Assembly (NCBI GenBank): GCA_010015655.1
Contig: ML976718.1
Location: 310,001 to 374,000 of the forward strand
Origin: Bimuria novae-zelandiae CBS 107.79
Lineage: Eukaryota > Ascomycota > Dothideomycetes > Pleosporales > Didymosphaeriaceae
Direction: 5' to 3'
Length of the DNA: 64,000 nt
Shown here piece by piece: positions 31,908 through 61,500 of this stretch. A program made the position numbers and the translations under genes. The notes under the pieces were generated by a model. The model was given only the letters and a program-made list of their open reading frames with translations, had not been told where the DNA came from and made no database searches. Each line of letters begins with the position of its first letter. Positions within the stretch are counted from its first letter, which is position 1.

Positions 31908-32041
31908 TGTGACGGTTCAGTATAGAAGCTTGGGCCACCCGCGTACGTGCGGCCTGTGCACGTGATCCACACTATATAGCTCCATAGAGTAGCTTCTCAA
32001 TCAAAACAACGATTGCCTCAACACTCTTTTTCGACCTTACA
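31908..32041. mobile_element. Solo LTR-like insertion, 134 bp
   Basis: The insert starts TGTGACGG and ends CTTACA, the TG...CA ends of LTRs. It is flanked by the 5-bp duplication GTCAC (31903-31907 and 32042-32046). It interrupts the GNAT coding sequence. No internal retrotransposon sequence accompanies it, so it is read as a solo LTR; 134 bp is short for an LTR. An intron is unlikely because splicing at its edges leaves a stop in frame. Confidence 0.65.
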
Positions 32042-32484
32042 GTCACCATGCACTCTATACCTCAGCTCCACCATCTCCTGCCACAGTGGCAGCGGCGCAT
32101 CACCTTCCTCCCGCTCTGGCATCGACGTCGTCGTCGCATCCCGAACGCCCGCGTCAGCGCTGCCAACGAACAGAACGTTCGATCTCAACAATCGATCCAA
32201 ACGGCGTTTTCTAGTGTTTTGGATCAAACGAACTGTCACGGTACCTCTAGTATCCGCAACACCTTAGCTGCGCTGTTGCCGAAGCACTAGCGCTAGCCCG
32301 TACACCCCTGCACATTCTATCCACAGCCCCTATTTATATAGCCTTGTCTGCCTGTATTCCTGCTCCTTAGCTATCCTCTTGTATTACACCTGAGTATGTA
32401 CACAGTAGCCTAGTTAATCAAGCTCTCTGAGTTCCTGATTTAGCGACCTGTAGCCTCTCGTGACACGAACGAACAGGCATGGTG

Positions 32485-34220
32485 GGTTAAATAGAGCTTT
32501 AAATAAACGCATTATTAGAGCCAAACATTTAATTATTTAATTATTTACGGCTATTTTTAATTAATTTAGTATAAAAATTTATTATAATTAGTAAAGTATT
32601 ATTTTATTTTACTAGTCTTGTGCTACGCGTAGCATTATTATATATTATTTTATATAATATTATTAAAAAAAAATCTAAGTTTTTTTTTATATAATTTTTA
32701 TTATTTCTTTTTATTAGCTATAAGCGAATCGTATTATAAATTAATTTATTACTTACTTATAATTATCGTAACTAACCTAGTTAACTTAGTTAACCTAGCT
32801 AGTATTTAATAGCTATTACTATGCTAGGTTACTTATAGTAGCTATTATAGTAATAGTAGAGAGCATTAAGAGCTTAAATAATTTACTATTTAGAGTAAAG
32901 TTTATTACTCTTACGTATAAGTTTCCTAGTAAGCTATAAGCATCTAAAGCTTATTTTTATTATTATATAGACCTACTTTTAGTAAAGTAAACGTCTCTTT
33001 AACTTATTGCGTATTAGGTATAAGGTAAAAAGTAAAAGTTAGGATTATTTTAGTAACATAGCGCGGAACTTAAGTACGTTAAAAAATAAGCTTTTTTTTT
33101 ATTAATTATATTATACTTAACGTAAAGTCTTAGACTACTAAGTAGTTAATACTACTACTTATATTAAGTAGTATCTTAAAAAGATCTATAGTATTAATCT
33201 AAATACTACTTTGCTACTAATTACTAAGACACTATAGTTATAAATTTTATAATAATATACTATTACTAGCTTATTAAGCGCTATTAATTATTATTTTTAA
33301 TAAGAAAAGGAGCTATAGTTAGCGTACATAAACTAGGTAATAGTTAATAACCTAAGTTTTAAGATATATATAGATCTATTAATAAGGGACATACTAATAT
33401 AGAACTAAACGCTATTGCTACGCGCCTTGCTAGCAAGCTACACTACACTTTCTAAATATATTAAATTACGCCTAGTAGAGAGGAAGGTAAGAATCTTAGA
33501 GCTTTTAGCTAAATTAAAAAGTAGAATTTTTATAAGTTATAATATAACAATATTACTAAATAAATCTAATTTTTTTTAGAGTTATCGCGTACTTTATTAG
33601 TAATTTAGTATTTTTAACTAGAATAACGCTAGCCTAGCTAGTGTTAAATAAATCTAATAAACTTTAATAAATCTATATTATTAACTTATAATTTTAAAAT
33701 TCTTTTTATGAATAACGCAATCCACTTATTACCTTTTAGCCTCGTTTTTATAATTATATAGGCGCTATATAAGCTTAGATAATTTTTTGTATTATTTAAG
33801 AGTATAATTTTATCTAAAAACTATATCATTTTGTAGGAGATAATACTACTAATAATAATATAACTTTTATTTATAAGCTTAATAATATCTCTTTAAAAAA
33901 CTTTTATATTATTAGTAATTATCGTATATACTGCGCTAGCTATACTATTAACTTTATATTAAAAACTTTTATATATAGTAAAGGCGTAAGTGACTTTAAA
34001 GTAGCGCTAGTAAAATATTACTTAATAAATAATATACTATATTTTAGACCTATAGTGTAGCTAGCAAGCTATATAACTTTATTACCTTTATTTATAACTC
34101 TTATAAATATTAATGCGCCTTTAAAAAAATATAATAAAAAAAGCTTAATACGAATAACCTCTTTTATTTCTTTACACTTAATTTAATTAAAGAGAGTAGA
34201 ATCTAGTAGCATAGCGTATA
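32485..34220. repeat. RIP-mutated AT-rich block inside the hAT element
   Basis: Composition switches abruptly to well over 75 percent A+T, rich in TA, TTAA and CTAG and almost without CpA. It switches back within a few dozen bases near 34.2 kb. The last part is in register with the transposase: a frame with TAG TAG and Ile/Val for Thr leads directly into MLLRCLKLREP. So this is mutated transposase, not a separate insertion, at least at its right edge. The pattern is RIP-like C-to-T change on both strands. Confidence 0.8.
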
Positions 34221-37400: not shown

Positions 37401-39572
37401 GTGTCGTTAAGAAGGGGCGACGATGTTTGCGAGCCATCTGTAGGTGGAGATTCTGAAACGAAGTGTGAGGTGGAGTCCGGTGACGACAATTCAGACGTAA
37501 GCGGTGCAATCGTGATTTTGCTCTCTTTGGCGGCCTCGTTTGGGGACTGTTTAGGCTCCGCTATCGCAAATTTTTCAACCTCAACCACACCTTTGCGAGT
37601 CTCCTTCATCACCGGAGCGCCTTCATTGGCACTATCCTTCTGATCCTGCAAGGCTTTCGACCTCTCATCTTCCTTCGTCACTTGTTCCATCTCAACTGCT
37701 CTATCTTGTTCTGCTTCTGTTGGATTTTCCGTCGCTTTGTCCATAGTCCGACTCGCCTCCTCCAAACCAGATTGTTATGGTTCAGATGTTTGCAGGCTAG
37801 GGAAATTTGTCTCAAAATCACTTATCCACAGGTCGTATGTGAGAAGCAGGTCCTGATGGTTTGTGCGCGTTCGATGGTGGTTCCGTTGTTGATTGAGATC
37901 GGATGACACATTGATCTTGTCCTGTTTCCATACCGCGTACCTTCGCAGCTTATCTTCCAGCACATCTTGGACGGTACTGGATTGTGCTTCTACTACAGTT
38001 TCAAGGTTCAACAGCTCTGCCTCGGAAAGTTTTCCTGCTTTGAGAATGAGCCTAGACGCTTCTTTGCTATGCTGAGAGTCCAGCGCAACTAGTAAGTGTG
38101 ACATTCGGCGCTTGGATTCTTGAAGAGTTCTTAAGAACTCTTCGCGATCAACCGCACTCAAGTCTGGAGATGTCAGGCGGTCCTCCAATTCCCGAACACG
38201 TTGCTCAAGTTTCGTGTATTGTGGAGCGTTGAAATCGTATAAGATCGTTGAACGTGATCTGAAAGTCTCGTAATCGGCTAATGTGACGCCAGCTCGTTCC
38301 ATTTTCAGCTTGTTGGCCGCAAGGCCTACCCTGAACGCCTCGACTCTAGCCAAGCTGGTAGTCCCAGCAAGCCGTGCTTCCAAACGGTGCCTTCTCAGTA
38401 TGAGCTGGTGTGGCCGGTCAGAAGTCTGCGAATGTTATTCTGCGCTTCTCTCTGTCGCCGTCGGTTCGGTTGTTGTTACCTGGGGCGCGGACTCGGTAAG
38501 TGACAGATCACTCGAACTTCCGACCGCGGAGGCTTCTGGGTGCCCCTCAGCGCGTGCGAGCATTTCTACCGAAAGCTGGGTTTCCGAGTGCCTGTCTGCA
38601 ACTGGCCCAGATGGAGGGTCCTTGTGACTTGATAGCTCAACGGGTTGGGTAAATTTAAGGACAAAAAAGGCTCGCCACCGGGCAACTTGTTGAGAGAAAA
38701 CATCACGTAGCCTTGACCCAATGATCGTATTCTGATCAGCAGATGTGGTACTTGGTACAGGCACTTCTGGGAGCCCGTCTATCTGCCTGATTTCGGCGAG
38801 GTCCTCGCTTGTTGCCTGGCTCGTGTCGTAGTCTAATTCCTCTAACTCAGCTCGTTCCATTTGATCAGCAATCCGACGGAGATCGCGCTCAAGGCCTAAA
38901 CGTTCGACTGCAGTTCGAACCGTCGCTAGATCCTTGCCAGAATCGATATACACAGCACCAATGATTGCTTCGAATGTCTCAGCAATATCTTCAAAGACAG
39001 CAACCCGCTTGGAGTCTGAGATCAGAATAGGGTAATCCAAACCCAATGCCAGAGCCCGCTTTTCCATAGCTTTGCGTGATTCCAGTACGGTGGACAACCG
39101 GGCATATCTACCGTTGTCCAGTTTTGTGTTCCACCAAAGCTCACACAAAGTCAATCCAAGTGCTCTATCACCTACCAGGGCGAGTCGCCTATTCTTCTCG
39201 ACAGGCATGATGATGCCTTGCCAATACAGTGGTTGTGTATCGTGAGATGTCTTGAGTGCTTGTAAGCCGATCATCTTGTTCTTGAACTTGTAGCCGATAA
39301 TGTCCTCCACGCGGACGACACGCGTTGCAGCATCGAAAAAATCGTGATGATGTAGCGGTGCCGATTGATGGATACGTAAGGTCCCTTTGGCGACGCGAAG
39401 AAGAGAGTATCGTGCCGGGTGAAGGAATTAGGCAGGGGGCGCGCGCGCTTGGGTCCCCGAAATCGTTCTTCAAAGAGCCTTCGCCACTTTTCGAAATGAT
39501 GAAGCAGAGAGACATTTGCTCGTCTCTTTCGACTCATGGATTGATGCAATGTCACAGAATCCGGTGATTTTA

Positions 39573-41149: not shown

Positions 41150-42980
41150 GTTTAACTATAAAAGCTTTTAAGGTTATAGACTTACTTTTTTAAGACTATT
41201 ATAAGGCTTTTATAAAGTTATAAGCTTATTTAGTAGTAACATAGTTTATAAGCGAGCTGTCAGTATAAGCGAGTGGTCACCCCACCAACTTTTCATCGCC
41301 TTTATAGTGACTTAACACAACAACGCGATATAATAATTATATACAATTGCTATTATAGATTAAGCAGTATCTATAGTACGCTTTACACACGTTCGCGCGT
41401 TATGCCTAGTCTCTCTATAGCAACTGCAGCGCGCTGAAGCCTGCCAACTAGCACCTAATTACGCCCTACCTTAACGCGTTTCGCTCTCTAGCTACTGCTT
41501 AACGTCCTTTTAAGTAATAATCTCCTCTGCCTCTGCCTTTATAAGGGTGCCTTGTTTCTATATCCGCTTCTTTTGTCGCTTTCTTCGTGATGTGGCTACC
41601 CTATTTGCCTATTTAAGCCTCGCGATCCGATCGCGCATAAGCGTACTCTTATAAGCTATTACTTTAGTGCCCTTTTTAAGCTAATTAAGCGCTGTAATAA
41701 TAAAAGCAGGTAATAAGCTTTTATATTTTTAAATCTTATTATATATTAAGGTTAATTAAGCTTCTAGCTCGCGCGCGTTACTTAGTATTTTAGCTTCTTA
41801 AAGAGTAACCTTTAGCGCAGGCGGTGTAGGCGTGCGAAGCTTTATATTAAGCTTTAATATTACTACCTCTAGATCGTGTGGGACTAGGCTAGCGCCTCGA
41901 AAGCTTGCGCAGATATTCTCCTTTATAATTAATTACTTATAGGCTACGTAAAAGGCTAGTAAAAACTCTAGCTTTATAATATAGCTAATATGGTCGCGTA
42001 TTAGGCTCTCGATCTAGCGGCTATACGCGCGCTTTAACGGCGAGAAGCAGCCTATATTAAGTAGCTATAAAAGGTGCGACGAATGTAGCAGTATATAAAG
42101 AATATAAATATTATTCTCCTTACAAAGCTACTAGAATTTAAGCAAGTTATAGCTCTTATAACTATTAAGTATAAGTAGCTAGCGCGCGCCTACCCTACGC
42201 TCTACTATATACTTAATAAAGTATCTTAGCCACTCTACTCTAAGCTTATTAGTAGTCTAGCTATTATTACTTACTATAAAGGCCTAGTTGCGCGGTATAT
42301 TATCGTCCTCGTACTAGGTAGAGAGGTAATACTGGCTAGGAAAGATAATAAAGGGCGGGATCGCCTACCTAGTAATATTAATTCTATAGATTGCTATAGT
42401 CTACCCACGATTGCCTAGCTAAATAGCCTTTAGCCTGCCGCGTCTCTCTAAACCTATAATAATAAGCTAAGACGATATCTTGCCTATTATAAAGCTAATC
42501 TTATTAAAATTGTAGGTATCCTAATCACAGATACCGTAGGTAGCTTTAGTACGCGCTATAAGATTGAACCACGCCCTAATTATCTCTAGATCCTTATATA
42601 GAGCTTTTTGTTAATCGTACGGCTAATTAAATCGTGTAGTAAGGCGATCTATTCGCTTAACAAAGTTACGCGGCTATAGTTAACTAACCTAGCCAGCGCT
42701 GCGCTTAGCGAGTAGCTTATCTGCTATATCTTGTATAGCACCTAGGGTAGGCGCAAACCCTCGCAAATCTAAATTAAGTATATGCCTAATAATTACCTCC
42801 TCTTCTAACTTAGTAAGCTTTTTTAATTTAGGCTAGTAATTGCGTTACATAACAATTTCTACGCGTTAGTTGCGTAGTATACTTTAGGGGACGTTATAGA
42901 TTGCTGCAGCGCGTTGTTCGCTTTAGATCTAGTCTTAATTAATTACTAAGATAGCTAGAAGAATATCTGCTTCGTTATAG
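41150..42980. repeat. RIP-mutated block
   Basis: AT-rich sequence full of TA, CTAG and TTAA, with no open frame. It spans the left part of the outer and middle elements. CpG-containing words such as GCGCGC persist, which fits C-to-T change mainly at CpA. Confidence 0.75.
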
Positions 42981-43063
42981 AGTATTTGAGCAGGAGGTGG
43001 TTGAGCCATTATTGAAACAAGGTAATGTATTGCGAAAAGTTTGGTGGGGTGACAGCTCGCTTA

Positions 43064-45189
43064 CCGTGCCTCGGCAGTCAGTGCAACACGTCAGTCAATG
43101 CAACACCCCACCATGCAACGTACCAACTTTCACGCGCCGCATCCCCACCAATATGGATCTAATTAAGGCAGTAATTACAGCAATCGAATCGCAAGAGCCA
43201 GGAGCATCTTTTTTATATAGAAAAATTGCAAAAGAATATGGTGTTGCACTTTCTACATTGACGCGCTGGCACCAAGGCGTCACGCAGGCGCGTGCAGATA
43301 CCGACTCTACACGTCGAAATCTCAGCCCACAGCAAGAATCAGAGCTCCTACGATATATTAGAGGCCTTACTGAACGTGGCCTTCCTCCTACACGGCAAAT
43401 GATACAAAGCTTTGCCTCTACTATAGCCAAAAAGGAGGTTAGCTTATCATGGGTTGATCGCTTTGTGAGGCGCCACCCTGAATCCTTGATATCACGATGG
43501 ACGACCGGCATCGACAGCAATCGCCATAAAGCTGATTCCCTAGGCAAATATGAGGACTACTTTCAGCTTCTACAGCAAAAGATTGGCCAGTATCAGATCG
43601 AGACTCAGCATATATACAATATGGACGAAAAAGGCTGCCTGCTCGGCATCACCTCCCGCTCAAAGAGGATCTTTGATAGACCTCTGTACGAGAGCAAGGC
43701 AGTAAGGCAAGCTATTCAGGATGGTAGCCGTGAATGGATATCGATCATCGCTTGCATATGCGCCGACGGATCTGCCCTAGATCCAGCTCTAATCTATCAG
43801 GCCACCTCTACAGATATACAATCAAGTTGGATAGAGGACCTCAACCCTCAACATCATCAAGTCTTTATCACCGTATCAGAATCTGGCTAGATAAACAATC
43901 AGATAGGCCTTGCATGGCTTTAACAGGTGTTTAATCGCCTCACAAAGTTAAAAGCTAGACGATTATATTGACTATTAATCCTCGATGGCTATAGATCTCA
44001 CGTTACTATGGATTTTATCGACTTTTGCGATCGTAATAAGATCCTGTTAGCTATCTATCCACCACATTCGACCTATACGCTGCAGCCTCTAGATGTCTAC
44101 ATATTTAAGCCTCTATTAACAGCATATTCAAACGAGCTATCAGCCTTCTTACAAGATAGCCTAAGAATAGCCTCTATTGCTAAAAGGGACTTCTTTAGCT
44201 TATTCTAGAAGGCCTAGGTTAGTACTATAAGGTAGCTATTAATACTCCGGGCCTTTAAGGCTACTAGCCTATTACCTCTATATCTAGAAGTTATCCTTAA
44301 GTGGTTTAACAACAATCACGTACCTAAGCAAGAATTATAAGAAAGCTTAATCTTAGTACTTAGCGTATTAGATTAGAGGAAAATTGATAGGCTTCTAAAA
44401 GCTTATATTAATGTAGGGGCTAGTAATGTAGCTAAAAAGCTAAGTTAAACTATACACTTAATCTCTGCACGAGCACAGCTTGTAGAGCATGAAAATTAGG
44501 GCCTATAGAAGGCCCTAACTATCTAAAAGAAACGCTTAAAGCGAGGCAGGCTTTTGCCTTTTAATTAGCCTTATAAGGATTAAGGGGGATTTATTTTTAT
44601 ATTACTCTATCGCGTTTAGCGGGCACGTGATTATCTACACGAAAAAGATGCTAAAGCGTAGTAACTATAGCTTTAAAAACGTGAGCAAGTAGAGGCACGT
44701 CAGGCTAGCTAGTAGCTTTAAATAAGGCTACTCTAGGAGAGGCGTGTTACTTAAGCAGCTGCTAGAGATACACGCGTAAAGCAGAGGGCTAATAAAGCTA
44801 TAAAGCGACGCCTTAAGCAACAGGCCTATAAGGCATAAAGTTAACTTTAAAAATAGATTAAAATATCTAAATTAGTAAACAAGAAGGCTTTAAAGCCTCC
44901 TAGCAAGCCTACTAAGAAAAAACAGCCTCAGCGTGAGGCTATAGATATTAATAAGGCCTCATCTATTGCATCCGCCTCACAGTCGCGCAGAGGCCGAATC
45001 ATCAGAACACCAAGTAGATATCAATAATCTAAGTAGCTAGCAATTATCTACAGGCCTCAGAGACCCCAAATCCAGAAAATCTCGTGATAATATTGATTGT
45101 GGGTGGCTCAGCAGCTTCATGTTGCTGGCCGAGCGATCTTGTTGGGGTGTTGCATTGACTAACGTGTTGCACTGACTGCCGAGGCACAG
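43064..45189 (+). mobile_element. Inner pogo/Fot-type transposon, 2126 bp
   Basis: 47-bp inverted repeats start CCGTGCCTCGGCAGTCAG (left) and CTGTGCCTCGG (right). They differ only by two C/T changes and contain a repeated GTCA-x-TGCAACAC motif. TA duplicates flank the element (43062-43063 and 45190-45191). It sits inside the right inverted repeat of the middle element and is the youngest of the three. The first kilobase is hardly RIP-mutated; the second is. Confidence 0.9.
43153..45027 (+). pseudogene. Pogo-type DDE transposase, inactivated by in-frame stops
   Basis: Translation from ATG 43153 gives a psq-type helix-turn-helix (LYRKIAKEYGVALSTLTRWH), then a Tc5/CENP-B-like DNA-binding part (LSPQQESELLRYIRGLTERG, SWVDRFVRRHPESLISRW). 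The DDE core follows: YNMDEKGCLLG holds the first Asp, LILDGYRSH the second and YTLQPLDV the third region. The first stop is TAG at 43888-43890, where Trp is expected. Further stops follow in AWL, LLI and FSLF, all explained by Trp or Glu codons hit by G-to-A change. Beyond 44210 the frame is lost in AT-rich sequence. A basic tail near 44980-45027 (GRIIRTPSRYQ) marks the end. Confidence 0.9.
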
Positions 45190-45213: not shown

Positions 45214-46940
45214 TACGTTAGCTTTAGTAGCTTTTTAAGTATTAATAGCTTAATACTTTTTTACTTTAGCCTACGCGCGCGCTTCTTTCTCTTTTATCTA
45301 TTATTAATATTTTTCTTCTTTAATCTTATTCTTATATAGCTTATTAGTAGCTACTAACTTTTTTATTTTTACCTTTTTTAGCTTTTTCTTCTCTTTCTCT
45401 TACTTAGTAACTACTATGTGGACCCGCGTCTCTCGTATAGCTTAAGAAGACTATACTATTACTTTACTATAATACTCCTAGTGCTATTATAAGTTTAATT
45501 ACCTGCTAGGTTACTTCTAACGCTTTTATTTTAGGTATAGCTATTGCCATAAGCTATCTAGTTCGTTGTGAAGGAGTTCTACCTAGGTTAATAGGTGGTA
45601 GATAGTTTGGCTAAGCTTCCGCGCACCTGCACTGCGAGGATCCTTCACCTCCGCGCGCAGTGTAGTGCAAGCTCTAAGCCAATCCTCTGCAGAATAAGCC
45701 GTAGAACTAGAGGTAACTAAGCCTGAGTCGGTAGGTGTTGTGTGGCGGAATCTATTAAGTATAACGTTAGGGTTTATCGGGCTTATCCCCGTGGTAGTAA
45801 AGGCGTTTTATATAAGTTTTTCTATAAATATATTTACCTAGGCAGGCTAAAATGAGTTAATAAAGTTACCTTTTATTAATAGTAATAGGCTTTAAGACTT
45901 TTAAAGGTAGTTGTTAAGCTTAAAGGCGTACGCAGAGGAGAGTAGCTTAAAATAAATAATATTTAATAGTTATAGCGTTTAGGTACTATAAGAGGGTAAT
46001 ACTATAAGTATTATTTAATTTTAATTATAGTAATTAATAAAATCTTGCGTTAAGTAACTCTTATAGCTATTTACTATTAAAAGCCTATAACTTTAACGTG
46101 CCTTTACCTTAGTATAATAGTTAAATACTTACTTAAGCTAGGCTAATTTAATCTTATTATTTATTTAGCCTATAAGTAAAAAAGCTATATAAATTAAATA
46201 TATTCTTGCCTTAATATTAGCTACCTAATAACTCTAAATTATAAAGTTTTTTAACATAAATATAATATTTAAAAGTAGTATAGTACTATCCGCGTAGACT
46301 GCTACTAATAGGCTTATTTACTTACGTAAGCTATTTTAATAAGCTTACCTAACCTCCTTTTTCTTATATTAATATTTACTAAAAATACGCTTTAACCTTC
46401 TTAGTAGCCTAATTATAAAGCCTTTTTTATCTATATTATACGTGTACGCTAGCTTAATATCGTACTTAATTATCTTTTACTATAGGATATTAAAGTATAG
46501 CTTATACTTATACCTAGACTTAGCGTTATAATAATTAAAGTCTATAACTATTATTTATTAAGCTATAACGCGGTCGTAGTAATAGTATAAGAAATATATA
46601 ACTTAGCTCTTAAAATAAGGATTCTAAGCTACTCTAGACGCGAAATTTTATACTATAGCTTTTATAGGTAGTAAGCGGCGCGTAGAGAGTAGTTCTATAT
46701 ACTTTATAAGGTCCTCTTCTTATTATAAAATAAGTTTATATTATTATTTATTAGTAATATGTTAAAAGACCTGCACACTGCGGTGCCCGCGTAATAAAAT
46801 ATTATAATTAATATTATATTTAAGCGTAATTTTTATATATATAAATTTATTACCTAAATTTAATTTACAAACTTCTAAAAGCGTATTATTAATTTCTGGC
46901 ATAGTTATTAAGCTATTACGCGTTAAAATTTAGTGTAGAT
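45214..46940. repeat. RIP-mutated right arm of the outer transposon
   Basis: AT-saturated, no open frame. The last 50 bp, containing the inverted repeat, return to normal composition. A short normal-composition patch near 45580-45760 is spared. Confidence 0.75.
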
Positions 46941-47174
46941 GTTGTGCCCCGATCGTTGGTTGACTCCGATCGTTGGGTGCACGGACACGGTACTGCGGGG
47001 GACTAGGAGCGCAAGGTGTCGCGTGAAACAAGCTGATGCAGAGCGGAATAATTCGACAGAATGCCCAAAATCCGACGTGCACCCATTCCCCTTTGCCCCA
47101 TGTCACTGTTCCGCGTGGGAGTGACAGAAGCGCCATCGCCACCTGTCTTGCGCCGCGATACCTAAGCTGTCACC

Positions 47175-52852: not shown

Positions 52853-53009
52853 GTCTATCGTGGGCGAGAGGAAGTGTGAGACCAGCACGAAGGCTGGCAA
52901 GATATACGCATCAGCAAGGCGGATTGCGACATTGTGAGTGTTTGTAAGCTACGGATGCTGTAGGACGGCGAGCGCGAGCTTGGTGTGGGGTACCGTAGAT
53001 CCCGGCGTA

Positions 53010-54906
53010 CAAAGGGTAATCTCAATAAAGCCGGCCGTCATGTGACTTGCCAAGACGCTAGCGCGTCACTAGCGGAACAGAGTCTCCGAGCCTCCAAGAG
53101 CTCTGTAGAGCGTCAACACCTACACTTCAACCTCACGTTTCTCACTCAATATGGCTTCAAATCCTGCCCAAAAAAAAAAAAAACTCTCGATTGCTGTCAG
53201 AAGCCTAGCTAGCTGCTATCGTCGTTCTCAGAACATAATACAACCTCACTTTCCCAGAAATCGCCACTGATTTGGGTATAACTAACCACGCATGTAGTAA
53301 GGCATTTCGACGCGTCAAAGATGCTGCAAAGGTCGACTCACTGCAGGAATTGCTAGCTGCAACACCTACAGTCAAGCAGTCTCCTCCTGGCAGACCTGTA
53401 AAGGTACGCGATGGCTCTACGCTGAGCGCAAGACCACGGCATGACATTATCGTATATGGCACCTACCGGGTGCATGACGCTGTCAGAGACCTCTGCGCAG
53501 AAGCTAGCATCACACTTAGTAAGAATATAGTTTATAATATTGCTAGGGAGCACCACAACGAGCAGCACCTATACGTAATAACTTATAGAGTATAACCTAA
53601 AAAACTAGCGCTTAGTAGTAACGACGAGGACTAACGACTATAGTGTAAAAAGCGCCCTGACTACGGGCGACTCAGTCTATCCACAGTACTAAGGCGATCC
53701 CTTAGAGAGGGAAGAGAAGGGCTGCGGCGAGGGAAGTAGATAGGCGAAAGGCCCGGATAGCGCCGGTCTAGAGCGGACTAGGGCCGTCGAGGGCCCTCGA
53801 CCTACGACTCGTGACATATAGTACTATACCTAGCTTAAGGCTAAAAATAACTTATACTTTCCACGTATTATATTTGTTTGCTATAATAAGACCTCTAAGT
53901 CTATTAGCAAGAGTAATATACGTAGCGGAAAGTAGAGGATTTTAAAATTAGTTAGATAAGATAGTAACGTCTACGCACTACTTATAACGCTACTTAAATT
54001 TAGTTTTATAATCTATACTACTACTTTAACTAATACTACTTACTCCTATTAACGCCCTTACGTTATTTAGGCTTAAGATAACGATGTAAGCTATAAAGAC
54101 CTTATATAACGCGACTCCTATATAAATAATATAGTAAAAGAGGCCCTTAAGGTTAAACGCTCTCACGCGACTATCGCTAGCACCTATAAAAAGTAGTAAT
54201 TATAAGAAATTAACTATAATATTACCTATAATAATAGTTAACGCTAAGCTACTAATAAAGCTACTAGTAAAAAAGGTAGAGCTCTCCGCGCAGGTATTAA
54301 GAAACCTCTTACTATAAAAAGTTCTTTAAAATAGAGGAGTTTGTATGCAAAGGAGGGAAGGGCATAAATGGCATCTAGTACGCAGAGAACATACTTAAGA
54401 AACACTTATTCTTTTATTACTACACTATACGCGATAATAACTAAGGCGTAACTATTTATTTAATTTAAGATAACGTTTACTTACACTTACTAGGCCTCTG
54501 GTACTGCCAGCCAGAAATTAAAGCTCTAGGAATTAAGTTTGGCCCTCAGCCTCCCAATTCACCCGACTTACACCCAATTGAGCGCTGTTTTGGGCGTCTA
54601 GAAGGTTTTTTGGCAAGTTACGAATGCCTATCAAGTTCCAAGGAGGCCAAAAAGGAGGTCTGGCAAGGTGATAAGACACTCAGGCAGTATATGGCCGAAA
54701 AGCTTCATCCCACCTACTTTATGCGCGTTGCTGAGCTCTGCGAGGACGCAGGTGGCCAGAACAACTTTACAGCATAATTAGAACATCTTATTTGGGTGTA
54801 TTTGCTCATACTTTAGATGGAATCAAGATGCCCGACTTTTGAAGTTGCTACCCCTGCAGGAATCCCTGCTGCACGTGACGGCCGACTTTATTGAGATTAC
54901 CCTTTG
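53010..54906 (+). mobile_element. Tc1/mariner-type transposon, 1897 bp
   Basis: Inverted repeats of 35 bp start CAAAGGGTAATCTCAATAAA at both ends and differ by two C/T changes. TA duplicates flank them (53008-53009 and 54907-54908). The first 580 bp and the last 420 bp have normal composition; the middle is RIP-mutated. It stands next to a pogo remnant on the right and the monooxygenase promoter on the left. Confidence 0.92.
53151..54777 (+). pseudogene. Tc1-type transposase remnant
   Basis: The N-terminal helix-turn-helix region is readable (FPEIATDLGITNHACSKAFR, then SARPRHDIIVYGTYRVHDAV) but is shifted against the ATG at 53151 by the poly-A run at 53169. The frame ends at 53593 in RIP-mutated sequence. 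The C-terminal part is readable again from about 54500: PPNSPDLHPIERCFGRLEGF contains the last catalytic Glu of DDE-type enzymes, and the product ends GGQNNFTA. The central catalytic residues lie in the mutated part. Confidence 0.82.
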
Positions 54907-54908
54907 TA

Positions 54909-55290
54909 CGGTAATGCGCGGCCCAGCGTAACGCGCGGCCCAGCGTAATGCGCGGCCAACACCAAAACACCCTGAGCTTCAACACCACCTACTGCAGCCA
55001 ATATGGGATCTATTGAGGCTGTGCTTGCAGCTATATAATTGCTAGATCCTACAGAACCTATAAACTACACAGAAATTGTAATAAAATATGGCGTTGTACA
55101 CTCTACGCATGACTGATACGACACCTGCAACCAGAGTTGGCAACAAGCAAGCGATAGGCAGATTGATTACCAGATTAGAACTGGCACGGACCTGAGGGTG
55201 ATCTTTCAACGCTTAATTAGTAATCAATCTGCCTATCGCTTGCTTGTTGCCAACTCTGCCTGCAATCACTGAACACTGAGCTCTTACAAA
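54909..55290 (+). mobile_element. Pogo-type transposon remnant, truncated
   Basis: Three copies of an AGCGTAATGCGCGGCC-like motif at 54912-54958 resemble the terminal repeats of pogo elements. An ATG at 55003 follows, with a readable psq-type start (MGSIEAVLAAI, stop, then YTEIVIKYGVVHST). The rest is missing. A MITE sits inside it. The right boundary is uncertain. Confidence 0.6.
55132..55258. mobile_element. hAT-type MITE, 127 bp
   Basis: Perfect 39-bp inverted repeats, starting CAGAGTTGGCAACAAGC, enclose a 49-bp centre. The 8-bp flanks CCTGCAAC (55124-55131) and CCTGCAAT (55259-55266) differ by one C/T. Size, CAG-type terminus and 8-bp duplication identify a non-autonomous hAT element. 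Its ends differ from those of the 3.3-kb hAT element, so it was not mobilised as a simple deletion of that copy. Confidence 0.9.
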
Positions 55291-55566: not shown

Positions 55567-55988
55567 TCAACCTTCAATTCCCTGACACAACACCCATGCT
55601 GGCTTCTCCTCCTCCTTGAAGTGGCTCTCCTCAAACTTGGGGCCCCGGTGCAGCACTATGTCGCCTTGTCCTTTGCAATCCTCTTCAGTACTGCAGCATT
55701 ATCAGCATCCACGCGCAGACTGGACAAACTCACTTACACAAAGAACGCGCATCCGCATCTCTCTCGGTCTATACGGTAGATGACCGCTGTCTCATTGTTC
55801 CAGATCGGTTCGCAGATGCCATGTGTCTGAAGACCCACCGACCACCACGCAGTTTCCTCCATACGTACGTAGCCGCACAAGGGAGCGTTGTCGGAAGGGG
55901 TTTGGTTGATCAGATGCATGTCCGCGTTGTCGATCGGGGCCGCAAAGGCAGCACAAGTGGCCACTGCAAGTGAAACCACGAGCCTCAT
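55567..55988 (-). CDS. Small secreted cysteine protein A
   Basis: Two exons, 55988-55738 and 55690-55567 (47-nt intron, GTAAGT donor, branch-like GCTGATA, phase 2), give 124 residues. Signal peptide MRLVVSLAVATCAAFAA. The mature part has six cysteines. The core is LCGYVRMEETAWWSV, then HGIC, then RCGCAFFVTEEDC spanning the intron, and the C-terminus is KPAWVLCQGIEG. An even cysteine count and the secretion signal suggest a disulphide-stabilised extracellular protein. Intron place and phase match genes B and D of the same cluster. A 145-codon antisense frame (55342-55779) overlaps but has no features. I know no named family for this. Confidence 0.75.
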
Positions 55989-57412
55989 GATGGAGTAAAG
56001 TTTGGTAGCTACGTGGGAGGAACAAGGAGGTCTCGAAGATTGTCTTGCTTGGAAGTAAAAGCTTATTCGGTCGACAGATCTGCGAGTTGGCAATTTGGCA
56101 GAGCGGGTATCTCGTGGGCTCTAAATACCCTTTTTCGATACCCATCGTCCGCCTCCCCAGCCTCCTTCGCAGGTGGGTGCGGCCTCACCGACTGTCCTGA
56201 CAAAGCGTCTTCGTACACATACTACACTTGCCTAGCGCTTCCTGCAATTAGCAACCTGTGTATGGCTACTACTCCCTTCCGGAAGCTTTACGTGGAACGC
56301 CAGTGCAACGCTGGACAAGACTATCATCTGTTTCCGTTGTACAAGACTTGTCCTATTGGTGTGTCCAGGGCTACGAAGCTACCTTCGATCCTATCACTAC
56401 GAGACCATCGACTGCGGATCTGGGACTGTTGACGTGTCTCCAGCCATGTGGTCTATGTACTTTCTGGTTTCCATATATTGGATACTCACCGCTGGATAAG
56501 ATGCAACACCATTTACCGCCCTCCTGCCCATATCAATCTGGCTTACCGGTGATTCGCAGCGCAATACTTGTCATCGGTCTCAGCCGATATTGCTTCGTCC
56601 CTCGATATTGTCAGGGTCGGGTACCTATCGTTGGCCTGCTTGCGTGGGAGTGGCGCCACTGCCATGCAACTCTACGATCTTGTCATACACACAGCAGCAG
56701 ACCGAGGATGCAACATCACTCGGTATTGGCGTACCCGGAACTTCTTCATGGAATTCTTGCTATGCACCAAGCACACTACTGGACAGCATCACGTCTCAGG
56801 TACATTAACGGATGAGAAAGCATGGTCCGAGACAGCTTATAGTACTGCACAATCGGACATGAACGATCCGAGGGCAAAGAACAAGGATTGATTCTAGTAT
56901 TGGTTGGGATTGGCATTGTACCAACGAAAGGGACTACGAATCAGCTACGATATTGGCTCGATGCATGTGAGATCTTCACCACATCACTGAATCACGGGCT
57001 TGTGGTGATTGTATTCGCACGAAATTCGATATTTCATGCGAGGAGCCGATCATGCGGACGCCCGCCGCTATCGATAGGTCACTATTACCCTCGCCACCAA
57101 AATCATTCCTCAAGTATCTTTGGATGATATCAAGTTGCCACCGTATTAATTCTGGAAAGTACTTGAGTCGTACTAGATGGCCAGAGGTGACAAAGTTCCA
57201 CTCGCTCAATAAACAATCAGCTAGAACATACGCACGTAAATCCTGAACGACGTCGATTGATATAGCCAGCATCCAACCGCGATGATATGCGCGTTGTCAA
57301 GGACCAAAGCTACTTCATCGATTGAATTGTCCAAACGTCATAACAAACTACATACAGCGGTACTGATGCATATATAACCAACACGACAAACCATCGCAAG
57401 CCACTGGCCCTC
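55989..57412. other. Intergenic region in the secreted-protein cluster
   Basis: 1.4 kb containing the promoter of gene A and frames up to 185 codons on the plus strand (56258-56815) that lack consistent features. The three plus frames at 56.5-56.8 kb each carry short protein-like pieces, which could be a frame-shattered gene, but I cannot identify it. The minus frame 56976-57272 is also unconvincing. Confidence 0.35.
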
Positions 57413-58065
57413 CTAACTGGCAGTCGAATTGCTATGATTATCCACCTGGCACCTATAGTACTTCTCATCCGGTGCTCTGAATGACGAAAATCCCCCGACT
57501 AAAGACTCAATAGGAGACGTTTCATATGAGGTGAGGTTTCTGATCGTACAAGTCTCGTGCGACCTAATGTATTGCACGGCATCAGTTCCCAGTACCGCTC
57601 TTCTACTGTTTATCACATATACATATACCTATTAAATATACACCAACACTCAGGCATCAGCGCCACACTATTATAGTCTGTTTCAGTCCCAACCTTCTGC
57701 AAGCGCTTGCAGCCATGGGGGCTTCCCTGGAGATCTCTTCCCTGGAGATCGCTTTCTTGAAGGTTGCTTCCCCAGAACAACATACAGGAATGCTCGCGAG
57801 AAAGGTTGGTGAAGCGTGAATATGCGTAGCCGCAGTAATGGTCACCTTGGCTCTGCGACTGGTCTGCTGCACATTGTTCAGGGACGAGGTATTCTTTTGA
57901 AACAGAGACGGTGAGAACGAGGAGGAGCAGGGGGTAGATAATGGTGTTTGGGTTGTGCTTTGTGGAGGCTGGAAAGGTAAGCTGGTTGATAATGCACAAT
58001 TGGAGAGATGTTTGAATGAAGAGAAGGGGAAGGTAGGTGGGTAGGGTTTGGTCGACGACTTGCAT
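57413..58065 (-). CDS. Small secreted cysteine protein B, N-terminus uncertain
   Basis: Exons 58065-57629 and 57563-57413 (65-nt intron, GTATAT donor, CATTAG acceptor, phase 2) give 195 residues from the first ATG. The likely secretion signal is internal (YPLLLLVLTVSVSKEYLVP, about residue 44 on), so the true start or an upstream intron is unresolved. The mature part contains HYCGYAYSRF, HSCMLFW, then ECWCIFN-R-SHETC across the intron and DEKYYRCQVD near the end. The CxCxF block, the intron position and phase, and the terminal aromatic-x-x-C match gene A; FRAPDEKYYRC also matches gene C. A short duplication (LQESDLQGRDLQGS) lies in the middle. Confidence 0.6.
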
Positions 58066-58511
58066 ATCGTGGACTTAGTGTGACTCATACAGATTGGGAA
58101 GGAGTTAACGAGACATTCTTTTTGGCTCATCCGGGAACGAATAATTAGTGGTACAAGCCATACGCCGGAAGCTGCGTCCTGCAATCCAGTGCGCAAGACC
58201 ATGACTATGGTTCGTTGCGAAGACGTGCGATATGTTCGTCGCAAGAAGCGGTCGTGTTGAATTACTCACACAACCGTGTTTTTGAGAAGTTCCACGGTGA
58301 GAGGACATCCTGTAGAAAAAGTCCTCTTGCCAAATGTGCAGTGTTCTACCTACGCATCAAGAGGTCATTCTCAGCCAAAATTGTTCACGAACTTTCTACA
58401 ATATGCAAAATCACATCTTTGGATATCTAAGTCTCGACGCCAAACAGAATCCGATGCCTAGTAACCCGTTCGTCACGGCGTCCTCGTGTCGAGAAAGGCA
58501 GTCCGACTAGG
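58066..58511. other. Intergenic region between B and C
   Basis: About 0.45 kb. It should carry the promoter of B and the 3' UTR of C. No other feature is supported. Confidence 0.4.
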
Positions 58512-58959
58512 TCAGATCGGCCCAACAGAAGTACACTTATAATACCTCTCCACCGGCTCCTTAAACACCGCTAATTTGTCATAGTCATCAGATTTCCAAC
58601 TTTCCTTTGTAGTCCTGCGTAGTGCTCCACTTCAGTCAGCAAATTACGCGCTCTATTCACTCATGATCTTCCTACTTGTAGAACCAGCACTCTCATCCAT
58701 CCCACACGACTACTCCGCGATGGTCGGAGGTATCACGGGCGTTGCAATGCTGGTTCAAACGGACGCACTCATTGCTCGAGGTAGTGTTTCTCAGATGCTC
58801 GTAGTCGCTTTGACACTCTGTCCAGCCATTGTCGCCTCCGGTGTATTTGCACGCGGCGCCGCACCCGGGGTGGTTATCGGCTTTTTTGGTTAGGTTGGTG
58901 GTAGCAAGGTGGACCAGGGAGGAGTAGATAAGAAGGGAGGGAGGGGTGAAGATTCGCAT
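58512..58959 (-). CDS. Small secreted cysteine protein C
   Basis: Exons 58959-58706 and 58614-58512 (91-nt intron, phase 2) give 118 residues. The N-terminus MRIFTPPSLLIYSSLVHLAT is a weak signal peptide. The mature part has six cysteines: PGCGAACKY, TECQSDY, NECVRLNQHC and, in exon 2, RYYKCTSV. The second exon is supported by FKEPVERYYKC, which mirrors FRAPDEKYYRC in gene B. The donor GTGGGA is weak, and an alternative acceptor 15 nt upstream (TGAAG, after a GCTGAC branch-like site) also keeps the frame. Without the intron the product would end after 88 residues with five cysteines, which is less plausible. Confidence 0.6.
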
Positions 58960-59502
58960 AGTGGGGAAGTACAGCAGGTTCGCTGGAAATGGGCAGTTAG
59001 TGAGCAATGCACTGGTGGAGAGGGGAGGGGGAGAGTTGGAGAGAAGGGGGTGACTGTATCTAAAGCGCTTGACCTTGGTGGTGAGACAATGCTGACTCCT
59101 TTCAGGACAGCCTTGGTTAACAGCACACTCCAGTCAAACTAAAGCGAGCTTATGACTTCAAAAAATTTGCATAGAGGAGTTTAGCCATGTAGGCATGGAT
59201 GTGTTAGTCATGTTACATGACCTGCGTTTTGTTCTGGACCTATGAGCAATAATAAGAGGCTCGTTGGCTACGTAGAGGATAGCGCACACAATCACGAGAC
59301 TGGACGATCCATTGACGATCGCGATTGATACATATGGTTGCATATCATTAGAATACAGTTCATTAATAAAAGACCAAAACCCAACAAAACTCCCAAAATG
59401 TATAACCGACCAAATCAAAATTCCAAAGTCATGAAAGACGGAAAACTTCACGTAAGCCTGCTGCCCCTAGCTACCTTTGTGAAAGGCTTCGACTCCATCT
59501 CC
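58960..59502. other. Intergenic region between C and D
   Basis: 0.54 kb. A minus frame from 59451 to 59158 reads like a membrane segment (FGILIWSVIHFGSFVGFW, then SLVIVCAILYVANEPL) but begins with GTG and has no ATG. It could be a remnant exon. Nothing else is supported. Confidence 0.35.
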
Positions 59503-60031
59503 TCATTCCACGTTGTTGTTTTCTGGCTTAGACTTGTTCCACAAGAAACAGTGATCCGAATGGTATATCTTAGTATTAAACCATCCAGACGCATATCCAT
59601 CAGCGTATCTCATTGCAGTGATAGGTGAATTTTCCAGCGAATCAGTGCCTTGTTCCATGGCGCACAGTTTTCTTTTCTATCCCCGGCGTTAGTGTGTTCG
59701 TATTTACTTTCTCTCGACAACACTTACGTGTAAAAGCAGCATCTTCCCCTAGTAGAGTTCATCAAGAAGTCACCAGTGGCCTCGGCATCCACCGAAAAAC
59801 AGCTTTCGTTTGCAAACAACTCGTTCTGATAAGTGATGTTGTAGGAGAAAGCTGCTACCGTCAAGTTGTCCTCCTACAGGAGTTCGTGTCGCCCGGTGTA
59901 AAGCCAGCCCAGGACCAAGTCGTCATTATACCAGGATGGTGGGGTGGATCACTGTCTTCTCTCCGACCTAAGTTCATGGCGATGATCAAATGTGTCAAAA
60001 GTATTGCGATGAAGCTCCAGAATCGCATCAT
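59503..60031 (-). CDS. Small secreted cysteine protein D
   Basis: Three exons: 60031-59932, 59854-59728 and 59671-59503 (introns 77 and 56 nt, phases 1 and 2), give 131 residues. Signal peptide MMRFWSFIAILLTHLIIA. The middle exon reads YNITYQNELFANESCFSV then NSTRGRCCFY, with the second intron right after it (donor GTAAGT, branch-like CACTAAC), at the same position and phase as in A and B. The acceptor region is GATAGAAAAG: the second AG gives the product above, with DGYASGWFNTKIYHSDHCFLW. The first AG, five bases earlier, gives TKENC, closer to gene A, but stops after 97 residues. Which is used cannot be decided by eye. Confidence 0.55.
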
Positions 60032-60429
60032 CTTCGGCGCTACTCTACGCTCGAGAAAGCAGAGAGTTATCGGTAGTAATGCTAATGAAGTCTCTGAGAA
60101 TCAGGAGTGACAATGTGCAAAAAGTGGCTATTGATCAACCAAGTGTCTCTGAGAATAGAAAAGGTTGTACTGTAGAAAGGAGAAAATGGAAAGGCAAGAT
60201 TAAATACCATAGCTGGACAAGCACGTACATAAGCATGAGTCTATCAGGTACACTCGCACGCAATGACTATGTATCGGTAGGTTATAATTGTCATGCCATT
60301 TTGTTCCCCAGTGAAAAAGCAACAGCCATCAACCACTGACTCAATTTCTCACTTCATGGTCTATATTCACTCACGCTCCTCCACCAAAAGACCGCCACCG
60401 CCTGCTCTACTCCCCTCACCATGCCTCAG
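60032..60429. other. Intergenic region between D and E
   Basis: About 0.4 kb upstream of D and downstream of E. It should contain the D promoter. Nothing else is supported. Confidence 0.4.
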
Positions 60430-60901
60430 CTAATGAGGCTTTCCATAGCAATTATAACTATACCATCCGTGCCGTGCGGTTATCGGATGCGCCTTCCCAA
60501 CCTCATCTCCAAACGTAATCCGGTCTTTCCTATGCATGCAGTTATCCCCTGCTGTTGACATTGTCAGCTCAACCCTTAATGAATAGTAGGGTTACTTATT
60601 CATAAAAGTCACACGTGTAAATGTCATTTGTAATGTTAAAGCTCTCGATCCACAACTGAATTCCTCTATTGTTAACCTTCCATGGGAAAATCTCATGGCA
60701 GCCTTTGTTTTCGCACAGCTGAGTCCCCTCAGGCTGGCAGCCGTAAAGTTTTAGCTCGACGGAATAGACTTCCCCGTAGTGAGCGTAACCGTATGTAACT
60801 GGCTCGGATTGCTCGAACGGTGTATCCCAGGCGGAGGGGGGGATGGACGTGCTTGGGGTGAGGAGCGTGAAGATAGCTGATAGCAGAACTCGAGAACGCA
60901 T
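60430..60901 (-). CDS. Small secreted cysteine protein E
   Basis: Exon 1 from ATG 60901, with signal peptide MRSRVLLSAIFTLLTPSTS. It continues as VTYGYAHYGEVYSVELKLYG, similar to GYVRMEETAWWSVGLQ of gene A, and then LCENKGC. Exon 2 (60551-60430) reads GDNCMHRKDRITFGDE and ends HGWYSYNCYGKPH. A donor at 60612 (GTGACT, phase 1) joins the two into 136 residues. Unspliced, exon 1 runs on to TCDFYE and a TAA that directly abuts GTAACC at 60595. The expected family motif would be TCDFY before the intron, so the gene may have acquired a stop at its natural donor. The acceptor has a CTGAC branch-like site upstream. Confidence 0.55.
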
Positions 60902-61235
60902 TTTCGTTGTAGTGTATTGAACTGGGTAAAATTTCAAGCTGATGAAGAAGCTAGATTAATGGTTTGTGTTCCTGCGAGGATGTTAGGAAGGACGGAGCAT
61001 TGGAAACTACACACCATTGTGAGGTAACTGTCTGACTCACGTATGGTCGATGTGATTTGAGTGAGTGGAGATTGGGAAGCCGCGTGATTATCACTGACCT
61101 CACCTACCTACACATGGTAGTCGTGAACCACGACTCCTACGCTGCGGTCTCCAATGCGATATCATACGGCCAGACTCTTCCGATGGCAACACGATCGCCC
61201 GCCATCGCGCAGGAATTCAGGGTCCCCAACGACCC

Positions 61236-61500
61236 TCAACGGTGCCTCTTGATAATGCTTTTATTCCTGCAAAAACCACGCGCATCGTTGAAGCAGCAAA
61301 GTCCGCTGGGATTCACGAAACGACGGCACATTCCACAGTTACGGCGTAGATGCCGGAATACGCTCTGGCATATACCAGCACGAGAGCGAAGCATTGCATC
61401 AGCGGTTTCGCACTGATATCGACGTGGATCCAGCTGTGGAGATGCCTGTAAAATGAACTCGTCTGCAGAGCCTTCCTCCAAACAGTTCTCGCATTCAGAA
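61236..61500 (-). CDS. Cysteine-rich open frame, possible exon of a related gene
   Basis: An open frame without its own ATG encodes ten cysteines in about 85 residues: SECENCLEEG, YQCETADAML, GICQSV, RNCGMCRRF, GLCCFNDARGFC. The piece LCCFN-x4-FC resembles RCCFY-T and CAFFVTEEDC in genes D and A. An upstream exon carrying the start would be needed; I could not place it. It may be an unrelated zinc-binding remnant or chance. Confidence 0.3.

Follow-up and report, generated by a model that had tools for sequence, protein, structure and literature searches.

Within a stretch of genomic DNA from Bimuria novae-zelandiae CBS 107.79 (Pleosporales, Didymosphaeriaceae), a soil- and root-associated fungus, five neighbouring units share a gene plan in which a short block of cysteine and aromatic residues is followed directly by a phase-2 intron, and our data support the recurrence of this plan elsewhere in the 77.4-Mb genome. 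The stretch, called the window below, comprises 64,000 nucleotides (contig C63, positions 310001-374000). An original prediction had described in it an array of genes for small secreted cysteine-rich proteins, A to E, together with a sixth cysteine-rich frame. The signature of the class is C-x-F-[YF]-x (C-x-F-[FYN]-x in the array), in which the last codon, directly behind the C-x-F-[YF] block, is split by the phase-2 intron. The array is real, yet it is more decayed than first described, and it is part of a larger, dispersed class.

The array and its split block

The five units all lie on the minus strand and together occupy 55567-60901, i.e. the approximately 5.3 kb originally proposed. The window pattern TGYNNNTTYWWYNNGTR, which combines the C-x-F-[FYN]-x block with a phase-2 GTR donor and was derived from the array genes themselves, has four matches in the 64 kb, on the minus strand only, and these are A, B, C and D (0.46 expected; none of 100 dinucleotide shuffles reaches four). 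The intron directly behind the block, first suggested for A, B and D, is thus borne out by pattern in these three and in C, and extends to E by way of an AT-AC intron. Intron length in the five units is 46-65 nt, and a branch-like CTRAY site always lies 10-21 nt before the 3' end. A cysteine follows 3-6 residues past the split codon in A, B, D and E, but not in C, and the predicted aromatic elements of exon 2, AWVLC, KYYRC, RYYKC and YSYNC, are all present. Hydrophobic starts, on which the predicted signal peptides of the array units are based, are seen in A, C, D and E; by hydrophobicity only, the strongest stretch of B starts at residue 46, which makes its signal peptide doubtful.

Gene A (55988-55567) reads cleanly in two exons of 251 and 124 bases, which encode 124 residues plus the stop. 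Besides its own frame, exon 1 has nine protein matches, eight of them at an E value of 1.5e-28 or better with 90-100% query coverage and 64-76% identity, while the ninth (P0010; 69% coverage) departs before the block. One of these relatives, the deposited protein P0006 of Karstenula rhodostoma, is stored in spliced form as CGCAFFR-DEDACKGQ, with the junction where it had been placed from the DNA. The seven other relatives that reach the block show one residue beyond FF, after which they either end or read YV, which fits readthrough of a phase-2 GT donor. Given this degree of identity among relatives, A is conserved, and the label 'fast-evolving', originally attached to the whole array, had to be rejected for it; A is also probably functional. 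For B no relative was found at an E value of 10 or better (20 candidates), and for E none outside this genome. Protein searches revealed no annotated Bimuria counterpart of A or B, the sole own-genome row for A being the window's own frame, and when exon 1 of A, of B and of E was compared with the proteins of this genome, each matched only itself.

The remaining units differ in how much of the plan is intact. B carries the block PECWCIFN-R, split by its phase-2 intron, and is plausible as a gene. In unit C, an in-frame TGA precedes both the block ECWFYK and the C-terminal element RYYKC, and unit D combines the block RCCFYT and a good intron with a hydrophobic start in another frame. Of the five genes proposed, C and D are not clean and probably are decayed copies, judging from their frames, unless other splice patterns, which may exist in both, restore them. 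The sixth cysteine-rich frame, taken as 61236-61481, was rejected as a family member: it starts at a TTG, lacks a hydrophobic start led by an ATG and carries no intron at its CCF block. The likeness between A and E in a GY..SV element did not hold up either, since on its own it is not significant (p 0.12).

The AT-AC intron of gene E

Read without splicing, exon 1 of gene E ends in CDFYE followed by TAA. The stored protein P0013 (BU23DRAFT_260272) reads CDFYE-AGDNC...GWYSYNCYGKPH, i.e. it continues past this stop. When single introns with a donor 290-314 nt from the ATG and a length of 30-119 nt were tried, two yielded P0013, namely ATAAGT...GTCAAC and its shift by one nucleotide. Gene E is thus open only through an AT-AC intron, which is located, relative to C-x-F-Y, where the GT-AG introns are located in A-D. 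At the level of the sequence, E has the AT 5' end, the AC 3' end and the major-type branch-like site of such introns. An AT-AC version of the pattern has three matches, and E is the only one with an open frame of at least 30 codons. E is probably functional by means of an intron that would have changed from GT-AG to AT-AC.

The possibility that E is simply a pseudogene was considered and rejected, as the deposited protein speaks against it. A related and still doubtful, if not negligible, alternative is that the AT-AC intron is an artefact of annotation or assembly and that E is a decayed copy ending at the TAA. It draws on GT-AG sites (GTAACC...CAACAG) that sit only 4 and 2 nt off, although their use would leave the TAA in frame, and on the one-nucleotide shifted cut (TAAG...AACA), which gives the same protein. 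Against it stands the deposited protein, which requires removal of AT...AC. Ordinary gene finders generally avoid AT-AC introns, so transcript evidence behind the P0013 model is likely. An intron with a first A and a last C is consistent with a U2-type AT-AC pair, a CTGAC branch-like site is present, and phase and position of the intron agree with those of the other array genes. In its ATAAGT...AC ends and CTGAC site the intron of E resembles the AT-AC type II introns (PMC7072748), but differs from these in occupying a position at which neighbouring genes carry GT-AG introns.

Table 1. Exons, introns and partial frames of the five array units (window coordinates).
Feature	Position	Strand	Description
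Gene A exon 1	55738..55988	-	signal-peptide-like start, PLCGYV...GIC...RCGCAFF, phase-2 end; open reading frame, relatives at 64-76%, donor GTAAGT
Gene A intron	55691..55737	-	47 nt, GT-AG, phase 2; spliced relative P0006 reads CGCAFFRDEDACKGQ
Gene A exon 2	55567..55690	-	TEEDC...AWVLCQGIEG; agrees with end of P0006
Gene B exon 1	57629..58065	-	hydrophobic stretches, YCGYAY...PECWCIFN, phase 2
Gene B intron	57564..57628	-	65 nt, GTATAT...TTAG, phase 2; block pattern match
Gene B exon 2	57413..57563	-	SHETC...FRAPDEKYYRC; resembles exon 2 of C
Unit C exon 1	58676..58959	-	in-frame TGA at 58693-58695 ahead of CWFYK block; block pattern match
Unit C intron	58615..58675	-	61 nt, GTAGGA...CGCAG, phase 2
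Unit C exon 2	58512..58614	-	TTKES...FKEPVERYYKC
Unit D 5' frame	59861..60031	-	MMRFWSFIAILLTHLIIAM..., closes ahead of block
Unit D block segment	59728..59873	-	EDNLTVAA...RGRCCFY; frame differs from 5' part
Unit D intron	59677..59727	-	51 nt, GTAAGT...GATAG, phase 2
Unit D exon 2 start	59610..59676	-	KENC..., early stop, without C-terminal aromatic-x-C element
Gene E exon 1	60600..60901	-	signal-peptide-like start, YGYAHYGEVYSVEL...YTCDFY, phase 2
Gene E intron	60554..60599	-	46 nt, ATAAGT...GTCAAC (AT-AC), phase 2; CTGAC branch-like site 10 nt from 3' end
Gene E exon 2	60430..60553	-	AGDNC...HGWYSYNCYGKPH; basis is deposited protein BU23DRAFT_260272

Several further features were noted in the window. 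Gene A ends about 300 nt away from a 45-nt inverted repeat (55126-55264) with arms 49 nt apart and 96% complementary, which resembles a miniature inverted-repeat transposable element, and at 53006-54910 inverted repeats of 39 nt (95% complementary) enclose approximately 1.8 kb, possibly a DNA transposon. Further away, the frame at 42955-43890 contains a DNA-binding domain of Tc5-type transposases (Pfam HTH_Tnp_Tc5) and that at 38435-39427 a ribonuclease III domain. AT-rich blocks at 32001-34000 and 46001-47000, in which the GC content goes down to 22%, possibly reflect repeat-induced point mutation.

Recurrence of the plan in the genome

Because the pattern was drawn from genes in the window, the rest of the genome provides the more independent test. 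A genome-wide phase-2 pattern, TGYNNNTTYTWYNNGTRNGT, was therefore compared with its phase-1 and phase-0 versions and with reversed patterns as controls, and yielded 24 matches against 13 for its reversed control. A mechanical gene rule, i.e. an open frame of at least 40 codons, an acceptor and a cysteine soon after, was passed by 10 of the 24 phase-2 matches (8 of 22 without A and D), but by 3 of 35 phase-1 and 1 of 12 phase-0 matches. Phase 2 against the 47 control rows gives a Fisher p of 0.003, or of 0.013 without A and D; these rows correspond to 45 places, since two places match both controls, one of which passes in both. The rule passed over L015 because of its length limit and L020 because of masked bases, and both were kept as misses.

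Picked by eye, ten loci outside the window combine the block, the phase-2 intron and a following cysteine (L003, L006, L009, L010, L011, L012, L014, L015, L020 and L022). L006 and L022 are paralogues (E 7e-6), and L103, a near copy of L020 found with a relaxed donor, also passes the gene rule; L100 looks alike, yet has only 31 open codons. L098 passed the gene rule too, but was not counted as a member. A further locus is L110 (1399-1725), an intronless relative of the intron-bearing L014 (E 8e-7), whose frame crosses the junction and reads MCYLYSNQNC...SYNC. This uninterrupted frame supports the sequence of C-x-[FL]-[YF], 3-6 residues, a cysteine and a final Y-x-C as parts of one protein.

A second cluster, made up of L009, L010 and L011, is located at 499-501 kb of contig C29. 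At 1772-931 of L010 (minus strand), two C-x-F-Y modules, those of L010 and L009, lie in one frame with a TAA between them, each with its own phase-2 intron. Upstream of the module of L011, at about 2880-2640 of L010 (minus strand), an ATG frame, HSHYIFNRLIVNG..., which we take to resemble the start of an AA9 copper enzyme, is out of frame with the C-x-F-Y module.

Proposed common descent, comparison with known families and possible biological meaning

How could such a plan have arisen? We propose that the array is one local grouping within an old class of small secreted proteins that would be rich in disulphides, dispersed in the genome and descended from a common ancestor gene, a reading whose chances we consider to be even. 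In this ancestral gene, a phase-2 intron would have split the codon after C-x-F-[YF], with a cysteine 3-6 residues further on, and most members would have kept a [YF]-x-C-like element near the C-terminus. The sequences would then have drifted while the block, which probably forms a buried strand and a disulphide beside the intron site, was retained; in E the intron would have switched from GT-AG to AT-AC in place, and C and D would be decaying.

The case for common descent rests on the gene plan, not on sequence, and in this respect the statement that the relatedness of the genes is seen was too strong, even though the shared plan itself is supported. Exon 2 of B and exon 2 of C form the sole significant pair (p 0.0006) among the 20 pairs compared within the array by local pairwise alignment (5000 shuffles, clean exon ends). 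With a profile of the A family, tested on 16 candidates against a full shuffle and a shuffle with the cysteines held, L009 reached 0.013 in both nulls and unit C 0.066 and 0.046, respectively, all uncorrected for multiple tests. A MAFFT alignment of the A family with E and five dispersed members has C2 and C-x-F as invariant columns, the dispersed members having been selected by that very block.

A number of results weigh against a common origin of the class. Within the array, the other 19 of the 20 exon pairs are not significant; the other 14 of the 16 candidates do not fall below 0.05 in either null of the profile test, and E, L006 and L022 do not score against the A-family profile at all. 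Structure models, of very low confidence, were unusable (predicted local distance difference test, pLDDT, 41.6 for P0006, the relative of A, and 46.7 for P0013, i.e. E). In the genome, the 35 raw phase-1 matches (20 for the reversed pattern) exceed the 24 of phase 2, with phase 0 giving 12 (30 reversed); such raw counts prove nothing by themselves, and a small number of repeat-like sequences, present in near-identical copies, account for many of the phase-1 matches. With a relaxed donor, 51 matches equal the 51 of the reversed control, and among the 30 of these 51 that were fetched, 2 pass the gene rule (L098 and L103), unit C being among the other 21. Moreover, in 4 of the 10 dispersed loci (L009, L010, L011 and L020) the frame that was read shows no signal start led by an ATG.

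These results leave some room for unrelated small secreted families that share a short C-x-F-Y strand motif and an intron by chance, in which case the array would be a mixture rather than the product of duplication from one gene. Besides the mostly failing sequence and profile tests, the variable spacing of the upstream cysteines would agree with a mixture, and so would the DNA level: no repeats link the array genes, and direct repeats of at least 20 nt within the array are short two-copy matches only. The term 'tandem-duplicated' is matched by the layout, but not by any residual DNA similarity. Against a chance mixture speak the location of all four block matches of the window within a single 4-kb stretch on one strand, the same phase-2 position held by E despite its different splice dinucleotides and the similarity of exon 2 between B and C, and we regard it as rather unlikely.

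Could the class belong to a family that is already known? No credible Pfam, NCBIfam or PDB sequence match was obtained for any member searched, the best weak matches being PF10917 to L012 (E 0.0018, below the cut-off and over the signal peptide) and RNF4 to L006 (E 0.022). The motif order of L014 and L110, C..NW.G.C...C...GPD.G..C.[FL][FY]...C...SY.C, resembles that of fungal crystallin-like proteins, and the class, or at least its L014/L110/L020 branch, might adopt a fold of the beta-gamma-crystallin or WmKT killer-toxin type and be antimicrobial. The beta-gamma-crystallin/WmKT-like fold is reported to be widely conserved among candidate effectors of ascomycetes (PMC10462633), and these proteins are likewise small, secreted and disulphide-rich. 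In contrast to them, A and E do not contain the full motif set; furthermore, L014 has no Pfam match and no credible PDB sequence match, and the models are too poor for a comparison of folds. We consider this assignment unlikely, be it for the class as a whole or for that branch.

Far less probable still is that the proteins are RNase-like (RALPH) effectors. The candidate effectors of Blumeria do offer a parallel, as small secreted proteins of divergent sequence there have their intron at a shared relative position, carry an aromatic-x-C motif at the N-terminus and are encoded in loose clusters beside repeats (PMC3582587). Most of the Blumeria families tabulated there have two conserved cysteines, however, whereas here C-x-F-[YF] is followed within one codon by the intron and 3-6 residues later by another cysteine, and neither Pfam nor PDB searches gave a ribonuclease match by sequence. 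The IGYPs of Marssonina also are a divergent small secreted family united by conserved motifs and gene structure, but they have three exons, mostly 187-268 amino acids, an IGY core and QMxIP at the end (PMC4367982); here, there is one intron, which suffices for P0013, and P0006 (117 amino acids) and P0013 (141 amino acids) contain neither IGY nor QMxIP. Thus, families whose divergent members share an intron position or a gene structure are a known kind, and the C-x-F-[YF] block and the apparent switch of intron type are the new parts; keyword literature searches, with subscription papers mostly beyond reach, found no description of a C-x-F-[YF] phase-2 block.

Returning to a common class of secreted proteins, their small size, their hydrophobic starts and the presence of several cysteines suggest products that are extracellular, stabilized by disulphides and non-enzymatic. 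The genes are presumably transcribed, and we infer that their products would serve outside the cell in binding or antagonism, either at roots or towards competitors in the soil; they may be directed at the plant or at microbes. In its widest form, our proposal is that the phase-2 split C-x-F-[YF]-x marks an ancient superfamily of secreted proteins unrelated in sequence, in the Pleosporales or wider, in which one array intron has switched from GT-AG to AT-AC and thereby passes a stop that would stay in frame with GT-AG splicing; we put this forward tentatively, as less probable than its opposite.

Fungal genomes often encode small secreted proteins that count as orphans because they have diverged beyond recognition, and a splice-anchored signature that can be searched for in raw DNA could group them. 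Such a signature needs neither expression data nor structures and could recover genes that annotation has missed, as may be the case for A and B. Finally, the intron of E, if confirmed by transcripts, would illustrate from nature how an intron can change its splice type while staying at its exact place in a gene family.

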